Shown: one piece after another, positions 5,813-35,986 of the stretch | Numbering within the stretch: the stretch's first letter is position 1 | Layout: every line of letters starts with the position of its first letter | Assembly: GCA_025997475.1 (NCBI GenBank) | Contig: BNUQ01000011.1 | Span: 1-44,944 of the forward strand | Direction: 5' to 3' | Length of the DNA stretch: 44,944 nucleotides | Source: Planctomycetales bacterium | GTDB taxonomy: Bacteria; Planctomycetota; SZUA-567 | Notes under the pieces: model-generated | Databases searched by the model: none | The model's input: only the letters and a program-made list of their open reading frames with translations | Told to the model about the DNA's origin: nothing | Translations under genes and position numbers: made by a program

Positions 5813-5944
5813 GAGAGTTGAGAGGGGAGCGTTTAGAGTTCAGAGTTGAAAGTTGAGAGTTGAGAAAGTGGAGTTTTATTTTTAAGAGCGCGAAGCGCAA
5901 CCTTTGCTCAACTCTGAACTCTCAACTCTGAACGCTGAACTTTC
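5813..5944. repeat. Heptamer-array inverted repeat with GCGCTTCGCG-type core
   Basis: Left arm of GAGAGTT/TAGAGTT/GAAAGTT units, centre GTGGAGTTTTATTTTTAAGA followed by GCGCGAAGCGCAACC, right arm of AACTCTGAACTCTCAACTC units. The whole could fold into one long hairpin. It fills the gap between the exported-protein gene and the small unknown gene. Confidence 0.85.
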
Positions 5945-6219: not shown

Positions 6220-6288
6220 TGGCTTGCGTCCGTAAGGATTTTGAAAAAGAAAGAACAATTCGCCATTAACAATTGCTGTCGGAGTAAT

Positions 6289-6451
6289 TAGACCTGTTCG
6301 ACAACCAATTCGCGGCAAATTTTCGGCTAATTTTCCGTCCCGCCGCGTCAAAATTCCTTGCAATACTCTCGGTATTGCTTCGTCATTTTTCCTTGCGGCA
6401 CGAAAAATTAGACACGAAAATTTACTCGCTCGTAGGTTTAGAACAGGTCTA
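6289..6451. mobile_element. 163-bp foldback element, copy 1
   Basis: Bounded by TAGACCTGTTC and GAACAGGTCTA (perfect 11-bp inverted ends). Internal complementary blocks CTAATTTTCCGTCCCGCCG / CGGCACGAAAAATTAG and GCAATAC-TCTCG-GTATTGC make it a long imperfect palindrome. It is nearly identical to the copies at 13872, 29385 and 44823. No room for a transposase, so it is a MITE-like element; ends in TA hint at a TA target, which is inference. Confidence 0.88.
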
Positions 6452-6509
6452 TTGCCAAAATTGCGCGAAGCGAATTGGCTAATCAAGCGCCAAAATTTTT
6501 AATTTCTAA

Positions 6510-6831
6510 CTTATGTTGCGCGATTTTACCATCAACGACTCCGCTAAAAGCCCCGACAGGGGCTTAATGTGAATAACCCCGAGTGGAGCGGCGAGGTGTT
6601 TCCGCCGCGTAACTCGGGGAAAAGCGTCCCCGCCAATCTCAACCCCGAAGGGGTTGAACTATTTGTTGAACCCCTCTCTGGGTTCAGTCATCGGGCGGCG
6701 TCATCCCCGACCTGCGCGACGATAGTGCGTGTCGCTTGGTCGGGGTTATTCACCTTAAACGCCTACGGCGTTTTTTTAAGGATTTTATTTTTGTCAAGTC
6801 AGTTGCGATTTTTTGACGCGCGTAACATGAG
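6510..6831. repeat. Modular hairpin element with CTCAYGTTACGCG-type ends, copy 1
   Basis: Ends are CTTATGTTGCGCG and CGCGTAACATGAG (imperfect inverted repeats). Inside are stacked hairpins: AAGCCCCGACAGGGGCTT, AACCCCGAAGGGGTT, a CCCCGA...TCGGGG pair and AACGCCTACGGCGTT. The same order recurs at 19916-20233, and a shorter version in reverse at 8564-8756. No gene seen in 6487-6852. Confidence 0.82.
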
Positions 6832-6852
6832 TTGCCAATTGTTAATTGCTCT

Positions 6853-20258: not shown

Positions 20259-20732
20259 ATGCCTCTTCTTACCGCCCCGTTTAACCGTGCCGACGAACCG
20301 CAATTGGCGGCGACGGCGTTGACGTTGTGGCGGGGCGATGTGTTTATCGTGAAGCGGTTGGTCGATGAAATTTCCGGTGAATGGCGGGCGTTACAATTCG
20401 CGGAACAACCGGCGAGCGGCGGCGATTTCTGCGCGGTCGGCGGTCGTGTCCGCGCCGGACGGCAAAACGAATTGCCCGCGATTTTTGCCCGTCGTCAACT
20501 CGAATGCCGCGATTTTTTCGTGTTTCCCGATTTCGACGGCGACGCCGGTTATTGCGGCGTATGGCTGATTTTCCGCGGCGCGCTCGCCGCTTTCGCCGTC
20601 CAGCAAGCCCTTGCCGAATTTGAGCAAACCGTCAGCGGTTACCGCTTCTGGGGCTGTTTCCCCGCCCGCGAAAATAATTCCCCCGCCGCAAAAAATAATT
20701 CAGAAAAACTCTTGCGTCAGCCGATAGCGTAA
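20259..20732 (+). CDS. Protein of unknown function (157 aa)
   Basis: Not recognised. Soluble, no signal peptide or membrane helix. Aromatic-rich centre (ECRDFFVFPDFDGDAGYCGVW) and a C-terminal tail rich in Asn, Ser and Lys. The ATG follows a TCTAAACTCTAAACAAA repeat directly, with no ribosome binding site, so the true start may lie further in or the gene may be weakly expressed. Its base composition and codon style match neighbouring genes, which supports coding. It precedes the coiled-coil gene by 71 nt on the same strand. Confidence 0.5.
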   Translation: MPLLTAPFNRADEPQLAATALTLWRGDVFIVKRLVDEISGEWRALQFAEQPASGGDFCAVGGRVRAGRQNELPAIFARRQLECRDFFVFPDFDGDAGYCGVWLIFRGALAAFAVQQALAEFEQTVSGYRFWGCFPARENNSPAAKNNSEKLLRQPIA

Positions 20733-23197: not shown

Positions 23198-23221
23198 GTT
23201 ATTCCGCATCGCGGGTCGCCG

Positions 23222-23745
23222 CGAAGCGGCAGAATATATCAGCCCACCGCAACGCGAGCGGGTTGTCGCAATGGGGCGGGTTGTGTTATTGATTTGATAA
23301 ACTATTCCGCTAAACGCGCCGTAGGCGCAACATACGTCAGCCCACCGCAACACGGTTGGGCGTAGTTCGCCCCAATACAACGCCCTGCAAGGGCAACATA
23401 AAATCAAATTCCATCGTAATTTATGCGGTTTATATTGCCCTTGCAGGGCGTTGTCGGTTTTCCCATTTTACCCACCGCGGTGCAATGGGGCGGTATTTGA
23501 TAAACTATTCCGCTAAACGCGCCGTAGGCGCAACATACGTCAGCCCACCGCAACGCGGTGGGACGCACCACCGCAACGCGGTGGGGCGTAGTGCGCCCCA
23601 ATACAACGCCCTGCAAGGGCAACATAAAATCAAATTTCATCGTAATTTATGCGGTTTATATTGCCCTTGCAGGGCGCGTTATCGGTGGGAAATTATGCCC
23701 CACCGCGTTGCGGTGGGCTGACGTATATTGCCGCTTCGCGGCGGA
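23222..23745. repeat. Modular palindrome array, two ~203-bp direct copies
   Basis: The unit TTGATAAACTATTCCGCTAA starts at 23294 and again at 23497. Each copy holds GCGCCGTAGGCGC, a CCACCGCAAC-GCGGTGG palindrome, and paired GCCCTGCAAGGGC motifs some 70 bp apart, in opposite orientation, making an arm-loop-arm structure. No gene in 23058-23751. Confidence 0.85.
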
Positions 23746-23751
23746 TCAAAA

Positions 23752-24168
23752 TCACCGCAACCCTATTCGCGCGACGCGGCGTTTGGGGTTCACGTCGAGG
23801 CGTCCTTCGTCGGGGTAAATGACGAGGTTCATTTCTTCCATCGGAATCGCGCCGAGCAAAACTTCGTTGGCGTGGGGCATTACGACGGCGTCGCAAAGCG
23901 AAAATCTCCCCGCAAAACGCACTTCGACCGGTCCGACAATATCGCAGGTAATTTCGCGTTGGTCGGCAAGAATAAAGACCTCTTCGCCGATTTTTCGCAA
24001 GCCCAATTGCTTTTGCACCGAGGACGTAATCGTGAGCATCGTCGCGCCGGAATCGACTAATGAATTGACGATAGTCCGCCGCGCTTCTCGCTCGTCAAGC
24101 CGCCCTTCTTTGACGGCAATGTCGTCCGCATAATTCGACAACGCGATTTCCGCATAGACGTGTCCCAT
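23752..24168 (-). CDS. Retropepsin-like aspartyl protease
   Basis: 138 residues. The start at 24168 follows AGGAGGGAGAAA; an ATG at 24222 lies in repeat sequence. The single catalytic motif SLVDSGATMLTI (D39-S-G-A) matches clan AA retropepsins. A flap-like segment and GPVEVRFAGRFSLCDAVVM, then VLLGAIPMEEMNLVI, match the second strand set and the closing psi loop. Such proteins work as dimers and are common as small single-domain proteases in many bacteria. Substrate unknown. It is wedged between two repeat arrays. Confidence 0.85.
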   Translation of the reverse strand: MGHVYAEIALSNYADDIAVKEGRLDEREARRTIVNSLVDSGATMLTITSSVQKQLGLRKIGEEVFILADQREITCDIVGPVEVRFAGRFSLCDAVVMPHANEVLLGAIPMEEMNLVIYPDEGRLDVNPKRRVARIGLR

Positions 24169-24220
24169 TTTCTCCCTCCTGTTTTTGGTTCTACAATGAG
24201 TTGGATTGTATGGTTGCGCC

Positions 24221-24382
24221 ATTCAATTGCCACGCCTTTTAAGGCGTGGTTAGCGGGCAAAAAAAGAATGGGCTTTAGCCCAAAGTATGATATTCGGCTA
24301 AAGTCGGTGATTTTCTAACGCTATCGCAACGCGGTGGGGCGCAGTGCGCCCCCAATACAACGCCCTGCAAGGGCAACATAAA
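24221..24382. repeat. TTGCCACGCC module fused to GCAACGCGGTGGGG / GCCCTGCAAGGGC module
   Basis: Hairpins CCACGCCTTTTAAGGCGTGG, GGGCTTTAGCCC and a CGGCTAAAGTCG variant run into half of the CGCAACGCGGTGGGG family and GCCCTGCAAGGGC (24362-24374). Two otherwise separate repeat families are joined here. Confidence 0.78.
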
Positions 24383-24398
24383 TGCGATGCGGGAGCGA

Positions 24399-24851
24399 TT
24401 ATTTCCACAAAAATTGTTCATCGAAGTTAATGCCGTGTTTCTGCAAAAACTGCACATATTCTTCGTGGAACGAAATTTTTTTATGATGCTCTTGCTGGCG
24501 TGCGATGTAATTTTTTACGGTCGCAATCTGCGATTCGCTTACCGAGTAACCGGCATATCCTCCTTGCCAACTGAAATCCCGATAACATTCGTTTTTAGTT
24601 TTCAACCACCGGCTACTGTTTTTCTTTATTTGTTCAACGAAATCGGCGAGCGCTATATTTTTCGACATGGTTGACAAAACGTGCAGATGATTTTCCGTGC
24701 CGTTAATTTTTATCGGCACGGATTTGTAGTTTTCGATAACGCCTCCGATGTAGGCGCATAATTCTTCGTGTTCTTCCGCGCGGATGGGCGCGGCATCGTT
24801 TTTGATATGAAAAATAATATGCACGCACAATTTGGCCAATGATTGCGTCAT
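24399..24851 (-). CDS. Single-domain HUH (Y1) transposase, IS200 / REP-associated type
   Basis: 150 residues. GGAGAAAATTAA precedes the ATG at 24851. Motifs: HIIFHIKN near 11, NGTENHLHVL with the HUH histidines H55 and H57, KKNSSRWLKT near 77-85, and SVSESQIATVKNYIARQQEHHKK with the likely nucleophile Tyr115; the FDEQFLWK tail is usual. Y1 transposases nick and join single-stranded DNA at hairpins. No tnpB follows, and the gene is embedded in palindrome arrays (23222-23745, 24221-24382, 24875-25345), which is the setting of REP-associated tyrosine transposases. Whether it acts on these repeats is inference. Confidence 0.9.
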   Translation of the reverse strand: MTQSLAKLCVHIIFHIKNDAAPIRAEEHEELCAYIGGVIENYKSVPIKINGTENHLHVLSTMSKNIALADFVEQIKKNSSRWLKTKNECYRDFSWQGGYAGYSVSESQIATVKNYIARQQEHHKKISFHEEYVQFLQKHGINFDEQFLWK

Positions 24852-24874
24852 TTAATTTTCTCCTTTATGTTGCC

Positions 24875-25345
24875 CTTGCAGGGCGTAAACATTATTTATG
24901 CACTGCGCCCCACCGCGTTGCGGTGGGCTGACGTATGTTGCGCCTACGGCGCGTTTAGCGGAATGGTTTATCAAATAAATAACACAACTCGCCCCATTGC
25001 GACAACCCGCTCGCGTTGCGGTGGGCTGACGTATGTTGCGCCTACGGCGCGTTTAGCGGAATGGTTTATCAAATAAATAACACAACTCGCCCCCATTGCG
25101 ATAACTCGCTCGCGTTGCGGTGGGCTGACGTATGTTGCGCCTACGGCGCGTTTAGCGGAATAATTTATCAAATCAATAACACAACTCGCCCCCATTGCGA
25201 CAACCCGCTCGCGTTGCGGTGGGTTGTCGTATGTTGCGCCTATGGCGCGTTTAGCGGAATGGTTTATCAAATCAATAACACAACTCGCCCCCATTGCGAC
25301 AACTCGCTCGCGTTGCGGTGGGTTGACGTATGTTGTCGATGCGCG
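24875..25345. repeat. 98-99 bp tandem repeat array, about 4.3 units
   Basis: CGTTGCGGTGGG begins units at 24916, 25014, 25113, 25212 and 25311 (periods 98, 99, 99, 99). Each unit holds GCGCCTACGGCGC, TTTATCAAAT-AATAACACAAC and a GCGACAACCCGCTCG-type stretch. Same motifs as the array at 23222 but in reverse. Since 99 is divisible by 3 it keeps a spurious frame open. No gene seen in 24852-25390. Confidence 0.92.
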
Positions 25346-34878: not shown

Positions 34879-35868
34879 ATGCGCTACCAAACGACGATTG
34901 ACGAGACGCGCGAATTTGTCGTCGAAACCGGCGGCGAGCGGTTTGATAAATTTTTAGGGCGCGTCGCGCCGGATTTTTCGCGCACTTTTCTGCAACAACT
35001 CGTCGCCGACGGTTTGGCGACGCTCAACGGCAAAGCCGCCAAAGCCGGACAAAAATTGCGCGGCGGCGAAACGGTCGGTCTGCAAATTCCGCGGCCGGTA
35101 GAAATGTCCGCCGCGCCGGAAGACCTCCCGCTCGACATTCTCTACGAAGACGCCACCGTCATTGTCGTCAACAAGCCCGCCGGTTTGGTCGCGCATCCGT
35201 CGCCGGGGCACGAAACCGGCACGTTGGTCAACGCGCTCCTCGGGCATTGCCGCGACCTCTCCGGCATCGGCGGCGAACTCCGCCCCGGCATCGTCCACCG
35301 GTTGGATCGGGACACGACCGGCTGTCTCGTCGCCGCCAAATCCGACGCCGCGCATCAGGCGTTGGCCGCGCAATTCGCCGCCCGCGCCGTCCGCAAAAAA
35401 TATCTCGCCATTACGCGCGGTCTGCCGCGTCCGCCCGCCGGCAAAGTCGAGGGCTACATTATGCGGCAAGCGGCGGACTGGCAACGGTTGCGCTTCGTCC
35501 CGCGCGAAAGTAGCGGCGGCAAATACTCGCTGACTTTTTACCGGACGCTCGCGACGCGCGGCGAGGTCGCGTTGGTCGAATGCGACCTCAAAACCGGTCG
35601 CACGCATCAAATCCGCCTGCACTTAAAATCCGTCGGCGCGCCGGTTTTGTGCGACGCGCTTTACGGGCGCGAAAGTGAAATTACGCTTGCGACTTTGCGC
35701 GGCGAAAAAGCCGGCGAAGCCGCGCCGCTGATGACGCGGCAGGCGTTGCACGCGGCGGAATTGGCGTTCGCGCATCCGCTCACCGGCGAAAATCTGACCT
35801 TTTCCGCGCCGTTGCCGCCGGATATGCAAACGTTGGTCGAGAGATTAGAGTTGAAAGTTGAAAGTTAA
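34879..35868 (+). CDS. rluD: RluD-family 23S rRNA pseudouridine synthase
   Basis: 329 residues. S4-like RNA-binding domain (about 15-75: GERFDKFLGRV, FLQQLVADGLATLNGK) and the synthase domain with DATVIVVNKPAGLVAHPSPG, the catalytic motif GIVHRLDRDTTGCLVAAKS (about 136-154; Asp in HRLD), KTGRTHQIRLHL, and GAPVLCDALYG. It isomerises uridines in large-subunit rRNA; RluD versus RluC target cannot be told with certainty. It begins 9 nt after the coiled-coil gene. The last nine residues (ERLELKVES) and the stop are encoded by heptamer repeat sequence. Confidence 0.93.
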   Translation: MRYQTTIDETREFVVETGGERFDKFLGRVAPDFSRTFLQQLVADGLATLNGKAAKAGQKLRGGETVGLQIPRPVEMSAAPEDLPLDILYEDATVIVVNKPAGLVAHPSPGHETGTLVNALLGHCRDLSGIGGELRPGIVHRLDRDTTGCLVAAKSDAAHQALAAQFAARAVRKKYLAITRGLPRPPAGKVEGYIMRQAADWQRLRFVPRESSGGKYSLTFYRTLATRGEVALVECDLKTGRTHQIRLHLKSVGAPVLCDALYGRESEITLATLRGEKAGEAAPLMTRQALHAAELAFAHPLTGENLTFSAPLPPDMQTLVERLELKVES

Positions 35869-35970
35869 AAGTTGAGAAGATGGCGGAGCTTCGCGCCTCG
35901 TAGAAATAAAAATCCGCTTTCTCAACTTTCAACTTTCAACTTTCAACTTTTAACTTTTAACTTTTAATTC
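35844..35970. repeat. Heptamer-array inverted repeat overlapping the rluD 3' end
   Basis: TAGAGTTGAAAGTTGAAAGTT left arm is partly coding; core GGCGGAGCTTCGCGCCTC and AAATAAAAATCCGC; right arm of AACTTTCAACTTTTAACTT units. Confidence 0.82.
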
Positions 35971-35986
35971 TAAATCGGATGCCGCT

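Follow-up and report, generated by a model that had tools for sequence, protein, structure and literature searches.

REP-like three-hairpin modules accompany subclass 1.2 TnpA-Y1 transposases, and their outer half corresponds to Rfam Acido-Lenti-1

We analyzed a 44,944-nucleotide (nt) stretch from a Planctomycetales bacterium (GenBank assembly GCA_025997475.1). This stretch, which we call the window, is the entire contig BNUQ01000011.1 (C11) of an assembly of 2.39 Mb that is 84.6% complete. The initial annotation of the window described a lone Y1 transposase gene within a field of palindromes, and compared it to the REP-associated tyrosine transposases (RAYTs) and their repetitive extragenic palindromic (REP) sequences. 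We found that, judging by its motifs, the transposase belongs to subclass 1.2 of TnpA-Y1 and is not a RAYT, and that subclass 1.2 has REP-like partners of its own. These partners are modules of three hairpins (X, Y, and Z), and the outer half of the module corresponds to Acido-Lenti-1, which Rfam lists as an RNA (RF01687). We read the locus as a REPtron-like, single-stranded DNA system of subclass 1.2 TnpA-Y1, with a probability of roughly 0.78.

The tnpA open reading frame (ORF) is present at 24399-24851, where it had been annotated. It lies on the minus strand, is intact, and encodes 150 amino acids that match Pfam Y1_Tnp with 73.2 bits. The protein has the HUH motif (H55/H57), W95-Q96, Y115 (the putative catalytic tyrosine, by homology), Q119, and H122-H123, so that its catalytic motif, YIARQQEHH, has the form Y---Q--HH. 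H-x-H, WQ, and Y---Q--HH are invariant across the 15 proteins in our alignment, which is also the basis of our search profile, A1; broken, partial, or near-duplicate homologues, among them L052, were excluded from it.

Quentin et al. 2018 (PMC6006769) describe the members of subclass 1.2 as having Y---Q--HH and WQ, a length of about 148 amino acids, low copy numbers, and diverged paralogues. They are found mostly in Cyanobacteria and Bacteroidetes, are generally without the typical terminal structures of IS200, and are marked “no” for REPs in Table 1. The window transposase shares the motif, the WQ, and the size. It also shares the low copy number and the divergence of copies, as the assembly has just two matches to Y1_Tnp (the window gene and L009, on contig C10) and the two proteins are 28% identical. 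The “no” for REPs is contradicted by the modules that we found on both sides of the gene at 16 of 26 loci (cyanobacterial members were outside the comparison). We consider the REP-like flanks to be a correction to the description of subclass 1.2 and not a defining trait.

The proposed RAYT identity did not survive. Membership in class 2 (RAYT or TnpA-REP) is ruled out by Y---Q--HH in place of Y---NP; furthermore, the foot of the hairpin at the window is TCAG, not GTAG or, more broadly, the GT[AG]G of class 2, and each unit has three hairpins and a second, shared tail motif. Across modules, the foot is mostly N[CT]AG and rarely GTAG. Still, as in a REPtron, there is a lone gene with inverted hairpins around it, inverted doublets are dispersed in the genome, the foot lies 5' of the hairpin and usually ends in AG, and the protein has WQ. 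Q95 of WQ is among the residues for GTAG recognition in class 2, according to Quentin et al. (PMC6006769). Because subclass 1.2 combines the class 1 catalytic motif with WQ, it is a plausible intermediate, if the two WQ motifs correspond. TIRtrons offer another comparison: these have tyrosine transposase (TIRYT) genes between long inverted repeats, some of them self-complementary and some dispersed, but Di Nocera et al. 2013 (PMC3733652) describe them as RAYT-like, with a shared motif GGGGWSAS, and 20 of 26 TIRYT were placed in subclass 2.1 by Quentin et al. (PMC6006769). Some overlap of TIRtrons with the present loci is possible.

The window transposase has the IS200 fold, the HUH motif with a single tyrosine, and the Y---Q of the IS200/IS605 transposases, such as those of IS608 and ISDra2. 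These two are its closest solved relatives by sequence, and they also rank at the top when an AlphaFold2 model (predicted local distance difference test 87.7, predicted template modeling score 0.75) is compared to known structures with Foldseek (template modeling score about 0.6). A RAYT bound to a REP hairpin (4ER8) is at rank 30. Unlike those elements, the relatives of the window gene have mirror-image modules on both flanks, and the window genome has no multicopy insertion sequence here.

Going toward the gene, each module has X (a stem of about 5 bp with a 3-4 nt loop), a tail, Y, a spacer, Z, a short tail, and then the gene; 3' of the gene, the module is mirrored. The tail ends in the REP-like foot of Y. 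The window's module reads GCGCC-gta-GGCGC (X), AACATACGTCAG, CCCACCGC-aac-GCGGTGGG (Y), the spacer, GCCCT-gca-AGGGC (Z), and AACATA. The X-Y-Z order is seen at the flanks of most of the first relatives, and is unclear in some (e.g., L056 and L057). We built a covariance model, R1, from 13 modules (four from the window genome and nine from six named relatives). Of 71 R1 matches at later loci, 52 have a 12-nt tail and 59 have a spacer of 21-25 nt. The 13 modules are part of a set of 16, all with a short loop in Y, that we aligned; in this alignment, 92.4% of cells are paired, as compared to 29-54% (at most 53.8%) if the partner is slid by 1-3 columns, and 14 of 18 pairs have changes on both sides. 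The 92.4% is partly circular because the modules were picked for their hairpin look; this applies less to the compensating changes. A strict parser that requires perfect X and Z stems, and is thereby specific but insensitive, gave 65 parses at 30 of 48 loci and two in shuffled sequence. Within 1 kb of the gene, it found trios in 9 of 18 first relatives and in the window, but none at L009; the trios that it found at L047 look like a different repeat. Counting short hairpins according to the words in their tails yielded composition noise only. The features of the window locus are as follows:

23218-23304, plus: decayed outer X-Y unit (R1, 39.4 bits)
23316-23514: convergent pair 1, without a transposase (XYZ at 23316-23400, plus; Z and Y at 23431-23514, minus; from the R1 scan)
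23518-23562, minus: RF01687 match, corresponding to X and Y of pair 2 (37.4 bits; gathering threshold 37)
23519-23742: convergent pair 2, without a transposase (XYZ at 23519-23626, plus; ZYX at 23657-23742, minus; from the R1 scan)
23699-23743: RF01687 near-match (36.3 bits, just under the gathering threshold of 37)
24230-24315: element without a transposase, belonging to a second family of hairpins (CCACGCC..GGCGTGG, GGGCTTTAGCCC), resembling the hairpins at L009
24295-24380, plus: module at the 3' end of tnpA, with Z, a degenerate Y, and a hairpin of another family in the place of X (R1, 36.4 bits)
24399-24851, minus: tnpA
24866-24952, minus: 5' module of tnpA (R1, 88.9 bits; one of the modules from which R1 was built)
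24894-25335, minus: tandem array of X-Y units of about 99 nt (repeat family D1) extending beyond the 5' module, with decayed outer Y stems (R1 matches at 24976-25050, 25074-25149, and 25161-25248)
24909-24953, plus: RF01687 match, corresponding to Y and X of the 5' module on the other strand (37.4 bits; gathering threshold 37)

The palindromes are real and are concentrated at this locus. GCCCTGCAAGGGC occurs 14 times in the genome (once for a reversed-pattern control), and six of these are at the locus. CCACCGCAACGCGGTGG has six exact copies, four at the locus and two on contig C3 (with two mismatches, 14 copies versus 4 for the control). GCGCCGTAGGCGC, which we counted in the window only, has five exact copies, all at the locus. 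The palindromes had been said to be in opposite orientations left and right of the gene, and this holds for the modules adjacent to the gene but not for the left flank overall. To the right, all of the exact copies are on the minus strand; to the left, GCCCTGCAAGGGC is on the plus strand at 23382, 23608, and 24362 and on the minus strand at 23437 and 23663, because the two convergent pairs without a transposase sit there. The module adjacent to the gene on the left is damaged, with X missing. Among neighboring R1 matches in the window, two are convergent, one is divergent, one is +/+, and three are -/- (these are in the tandem array).

To look beyond this genome, we searched with profile A1 (E<=1e-8) in 244 genomes from the same phylum that were at least 80% complete, and found matches in 61 of them. 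Outside of the set used to build R1, there were 28 new loci, of which 26 were evaluated. At 16 of these, R1 places modules that point inward no more than 60 nt from the gene on both sides, and at another six, on one side. At the relatives, Z points inward and there is one module per side; in the congener G013, for example, its gene has one module on each side (L079). The relatives include Lentisphaeria, Akkermansia, and Acidobacteriaceae metagenome-assembled genomes. This part of the initial annotation, a single Y1 gene with hairpins inverted on its two sides, is supported. Plasmids yielded four records and phages one, every one at under 60% identity.

Across the 244 genomes (including the window genome and G013), R1 (E<=0.001) and the gene are both found in 43, the gene only in 18, the model only in 8, and neither in 175. 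By genus, the numbers are 30, 11, 6, and 128. With RF01687, which is a model made by others, they are 54, 7, 9, and 174 (odds ratio 149), and RF01687 was found in 0 of 14 control genomes. (The genome scans with both models used stricter filters, which lose weak matches.) Of 15 gene-carrying genomes that were reached via named relatives, 13 have R1 modules; two Akkermansia among the 15 have none. Six of the 13 supplied modules for R1, while the three richest (G254 with 81 matches, G255 with 46, and G256 with 39) did not. Dispersal of related hairpins, and their occurrence together with the gene, agree with the initial annotation. It had also taken equal abundance of the hairpins in relatives without the transposase as a point against itself. 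Within the family, 13 of 14 genomes that lack a match to the protein have zero copies of GCCCTGCAAGGGC and one (G009) has two, versus 14 and 64 copies in the two gene-bearing genomes. Across the phylum, however, 8 (R1) or 9 (RF01687) genomes without the gene at E<=1e-8 do have modules.

Most of the modules that lie close together are convergent. In G013, in stretches that were chosen for their best R1 matches, 17 of 17 close pairs are convergent and 6-9 nt apart, and by eye, 16 of the 17 have a short Y in one half and a long Y in the other. In other genomes (the window contig was excluded), 33 of 38 neighbors within 100 nt are convergent, four are +/+, and one is -/-, among the matches listed. 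Because close pairs are mostly convergent, a common dispersed unit appears to work like a REPIN (a REP doublet forming a hairpin) in which each half has three hairpins. In some rich genomes, G255 among them, R1 matches are mainly single or tandem. In 830 kb of the window genome there are 61 R1 matches at E<=0.1, some of which are plainly other hairpin families.

Comparisons to G013 give a few sites where the two congeners differ. At one locus, G013 has a gene-bearing element and the window genome has a gene-less XYZ-Z'Y'X' with a decayed last X. On one side, the flanks are 96-99% identical; on the other, they have a pilin-like gene in common (identified by eye; 95% identity over 199 nt), and the window genome has two further genes there. 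Another site is empty in the window (20657-20659) and has an element in G013 (L116, 1951-2232). Since the ORF at 20259-20732 of the window runs through the empty site, while the frame in G013 stops there (by eye), this suggests that the insertion occurred in G013. The sequence shared at the join amounts to no more than 3 bp (TTT). At a second site (L118/L131), the window genome holds an element of the second family and G013 has an XYZ pair. In the window genome (L062, 7204-8197), an ORF that by eye is like an AbiEii-type nucleotidyltransferase ends inside the element without a transposase, which provides its last codons.

The unpaired sequences of the module are conserved in two ways. Of 71 R1 matches, 60 have a Y foot that reads N[CT]AG, 66 have one that ends in AG, and 7 have GTAG; the model favors such feet, but in unfitted parses, 46 of 65 still have AG near the foot (19% is expected by chance). 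In some REPtrons, the last two bases of GTAG are the most important for cleavage, according to Corneloup et al. 2021. The tails of X and Z also resemble each other: in their first six bases, they agree at 3.21 of 6 positions within a module versus 1.94 between loci (68 modules; with one per locus, n = 26, p = 5e-5). A sequence-blind parser gives 2.74 versus 1.75 (65 parses; n = 30 loci, p = 1e-4). Moreover, the dispersed tails of G013 are GC[GA]TAACAG (every position is supported by at least 35 of 40 rows) and match those of its own gene, while the tails in the window genome are mostly [AC]A[CT]A[CT][AG]T[CT]AG, like those of the window gene (R1 was partly built on the window). One match in G013 (L116, 1201-1284) has the tail type of the window genome. 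The transposases of the two congeners are 40% identical. This matching of tails and gene is from one comparison, of two congeners.

The 46 positions of RF01687 align to Y, the foot, the tail, and X of the module, on the opposite strand. At E<=0.1, RF01687 is found at 11 of the 20 new loci that were scanned (8 of the 28 were outside the scan), and among first relatives, at 4 of 6 and 1 of 9. In Weinberg et al. 2010 (PMC2864571), it is listed from Acidobacteria and Lentisphaerae as “y” (probably) for being an RNA and as not cis-regulatory. A 2026 paper says that little is known of its function and guesses at gene regulation in Tannerella. In the open-access literature, among the matches listed, we found nothing that ties subclass 1.2 or RF01687 to flanking hairpins. 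What RF01687 describes is, at these loci, one half of the transposase-linked repeat. We tentatively suggest, at a little under even odds, that it is no RNA gene but the outer half of a repeat that subclass 1.2 TnpA moves as single-stranded DNA, with the guide of Y on one strand and the shared tail of X and Z as a guide on the other. With guides on opposite strands, a convergent pair would present one Y-type and one X/Z-type end on each strand. As part of the same tentative suggestion, such a pair could be a strand-symmetric, two-guide version of the ends of IS200. The unlike halves of the pairs in G013 fit with differentiated ends. Another Rfam RNA, Gut-1 (RF01706), is clustered in both orientations on both sides of tnpA at L047 (1150-3728), in an Akkermansiaceae metagenome-assembled genome, and it may be a hairpin DNA repeat too.

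Single-stranded DNA of the kind used by the IS200 family is often exposed at the replication fork. Given the modules beside the gene, their inverted orientation and dispersal, the matching tails in two congeners, and one presence/absence difference, we propose that TnpA would bind the hairpins in such DNA, and that short unpaired guides at the feet of the hairpins would choose the position of the cut. The foot of Y would play the part that GTAG plays as a guide in REPs, and X and Z would be guided, on the other strand, by their common tail. The convergent pair XYZ-Z'Y'X' would be copied or moved as a non-autonomous mobile unit, and the gene-bearing form would differ from it in having tnpA between Z and Z'.

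Could the modules act as RNA instead? They might form a structured small RNA, which is how Rfam classes RF01687, or serve as a leader of tnpA, folding over its start and controlling its translation, with dispersal being secondary. The “probably” of Weinberg et al. (PMC2864571) speaks for this, as does the fact that the 5' module ends near the start codon in many loci. Also, non-Watson-Crick cells on the module strand lean toward G-T over A-C (51 versus 17), although the RNA model to which these alignments had been fitted is itself on the module strand. The unfitted parser gives 15 versus 8, which favors neither side. But on the opposite strand, the one that RF01687 represents, the lean runs the wrong way, and the module is also found in inverted form 3' of the gene and as dispersed convergent pairs away from it. 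We consider an RNA role unlikely.

An ordinary IS200/IS605 insertion sequence that has hairpin-rich ends by chance is less likely still. Such an element would account for IS608 and ISDra2 TnpA being nearest by sequence and by Foldseek rank, and Y---Q is the class 1 motif. We rejected it because of copy number and flank symmetry: the flanks of relatives are inverted copies of one module, and the two genes in the genome are 28% identical, with no near-identical copies. (Some genomes of the phylum do have up to 10 matches.) The NCBIfam IS200/IS605 score of 46.4 bits is also below the cutoff of 55. We give similarly little credence to hitch-hiking, in which arrays of hairpins are hot spots where tnpA and repeats merely gather. 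At one site, a second-family element in the window genome does face an XYZ pair in G013, and heptamer arrays flank several elements; but inward modules lie near the gene on both sides at 16 of 26 loci, and in two congeners, the tails differ along with the gene.

Several observations weigh against a REPtron-like system of subclass 1.2. By R1, 4 of 26 loci have no adjacent inward module (by eye, two of the four, L089 and one side of L092, do show modules). L009 has hairpins of the Y and Z type with no clear X, the pair at 23431-23514 and 23519-23626 in the window is divergent and not convergent, and L052, a partial homologue, reads Y---Q--YH. Of the 61 gene-bearing genomes, 18 have no R1 matches and 7 have no RF01687, with the stricter filters. 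Conversely, the gene is missing at E<=1e-8 from 11 genomes that have R1 or RF01687. With a relaxed profile search, six of these gave weak or partial matches and five gave none. Of the eight genomes with R1 only, five have some Y1_Tnp and three (G052, G088, and G112) have none. Because there are model-positive genomes without a detectable gene, modules may outlast it or lack it; incomplete assemblies may explain some of these cases. The co-occurrence counts are not independent by descent and are uncorrected for shared ancestry. Finally, there is a single empty site, and the direction of change there depends on one shortened ORF.

If the REPtron-like interpretation is correct, then there is a proposed substrate, and with it a function that can be tested, for a transposase subclass that was described without REPs and that has a match in 61 of the 244 sampled genomes. 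RF01687, an orphan “sRNA” (small RNA) since 2010, would become a probable DNA mobile element. REP-like biology would also have a place next to IS200 within class 1, with implications for how REPtrons originated from insertion sequences.

We made some further observations at these loci. The neighbors of tnpA in the window encode an aspartyl protease and a phosphorylase; the former (Pfam Asp_protease_2, 23752-24222) lies within the hairpin field, between the pairs without a transposase and tnpA. The second subclass 1.2 gene of the genome (L009, 870-1960; from contig C10) has the motif YIENQESHH and is flanked on both sides by its own hairpin pair, CCCCACGC-ttta-GCGTGGGG and CGGCTTTAGCCG. A gene-less Y-Z-Z'-Y' copy lies near it. 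By eye, the window has a further X-Y-Z-like element at 6283-6833 (AAGCCCC-gaca-GGGGCTT, CCCCGAG...CTCGGGG, and ACCCC-gaa-GGGGT), with a long Y, which resembles the modules of the Akkermansia loci. In a 430 kb sample, 7.8% lies within repeats that have four or more other matches. In many intergenic gaps, a center of ~30 nt is flanked by heptamer runs that are inverted relative to each other, for example (caattaa)n...(ttaattg)n or (gagttga)n...(tcaactc)n; such gaps are at 5813-5944 and 35836-35974 in the window and at L058, L060, L063, L066, L069, and others.
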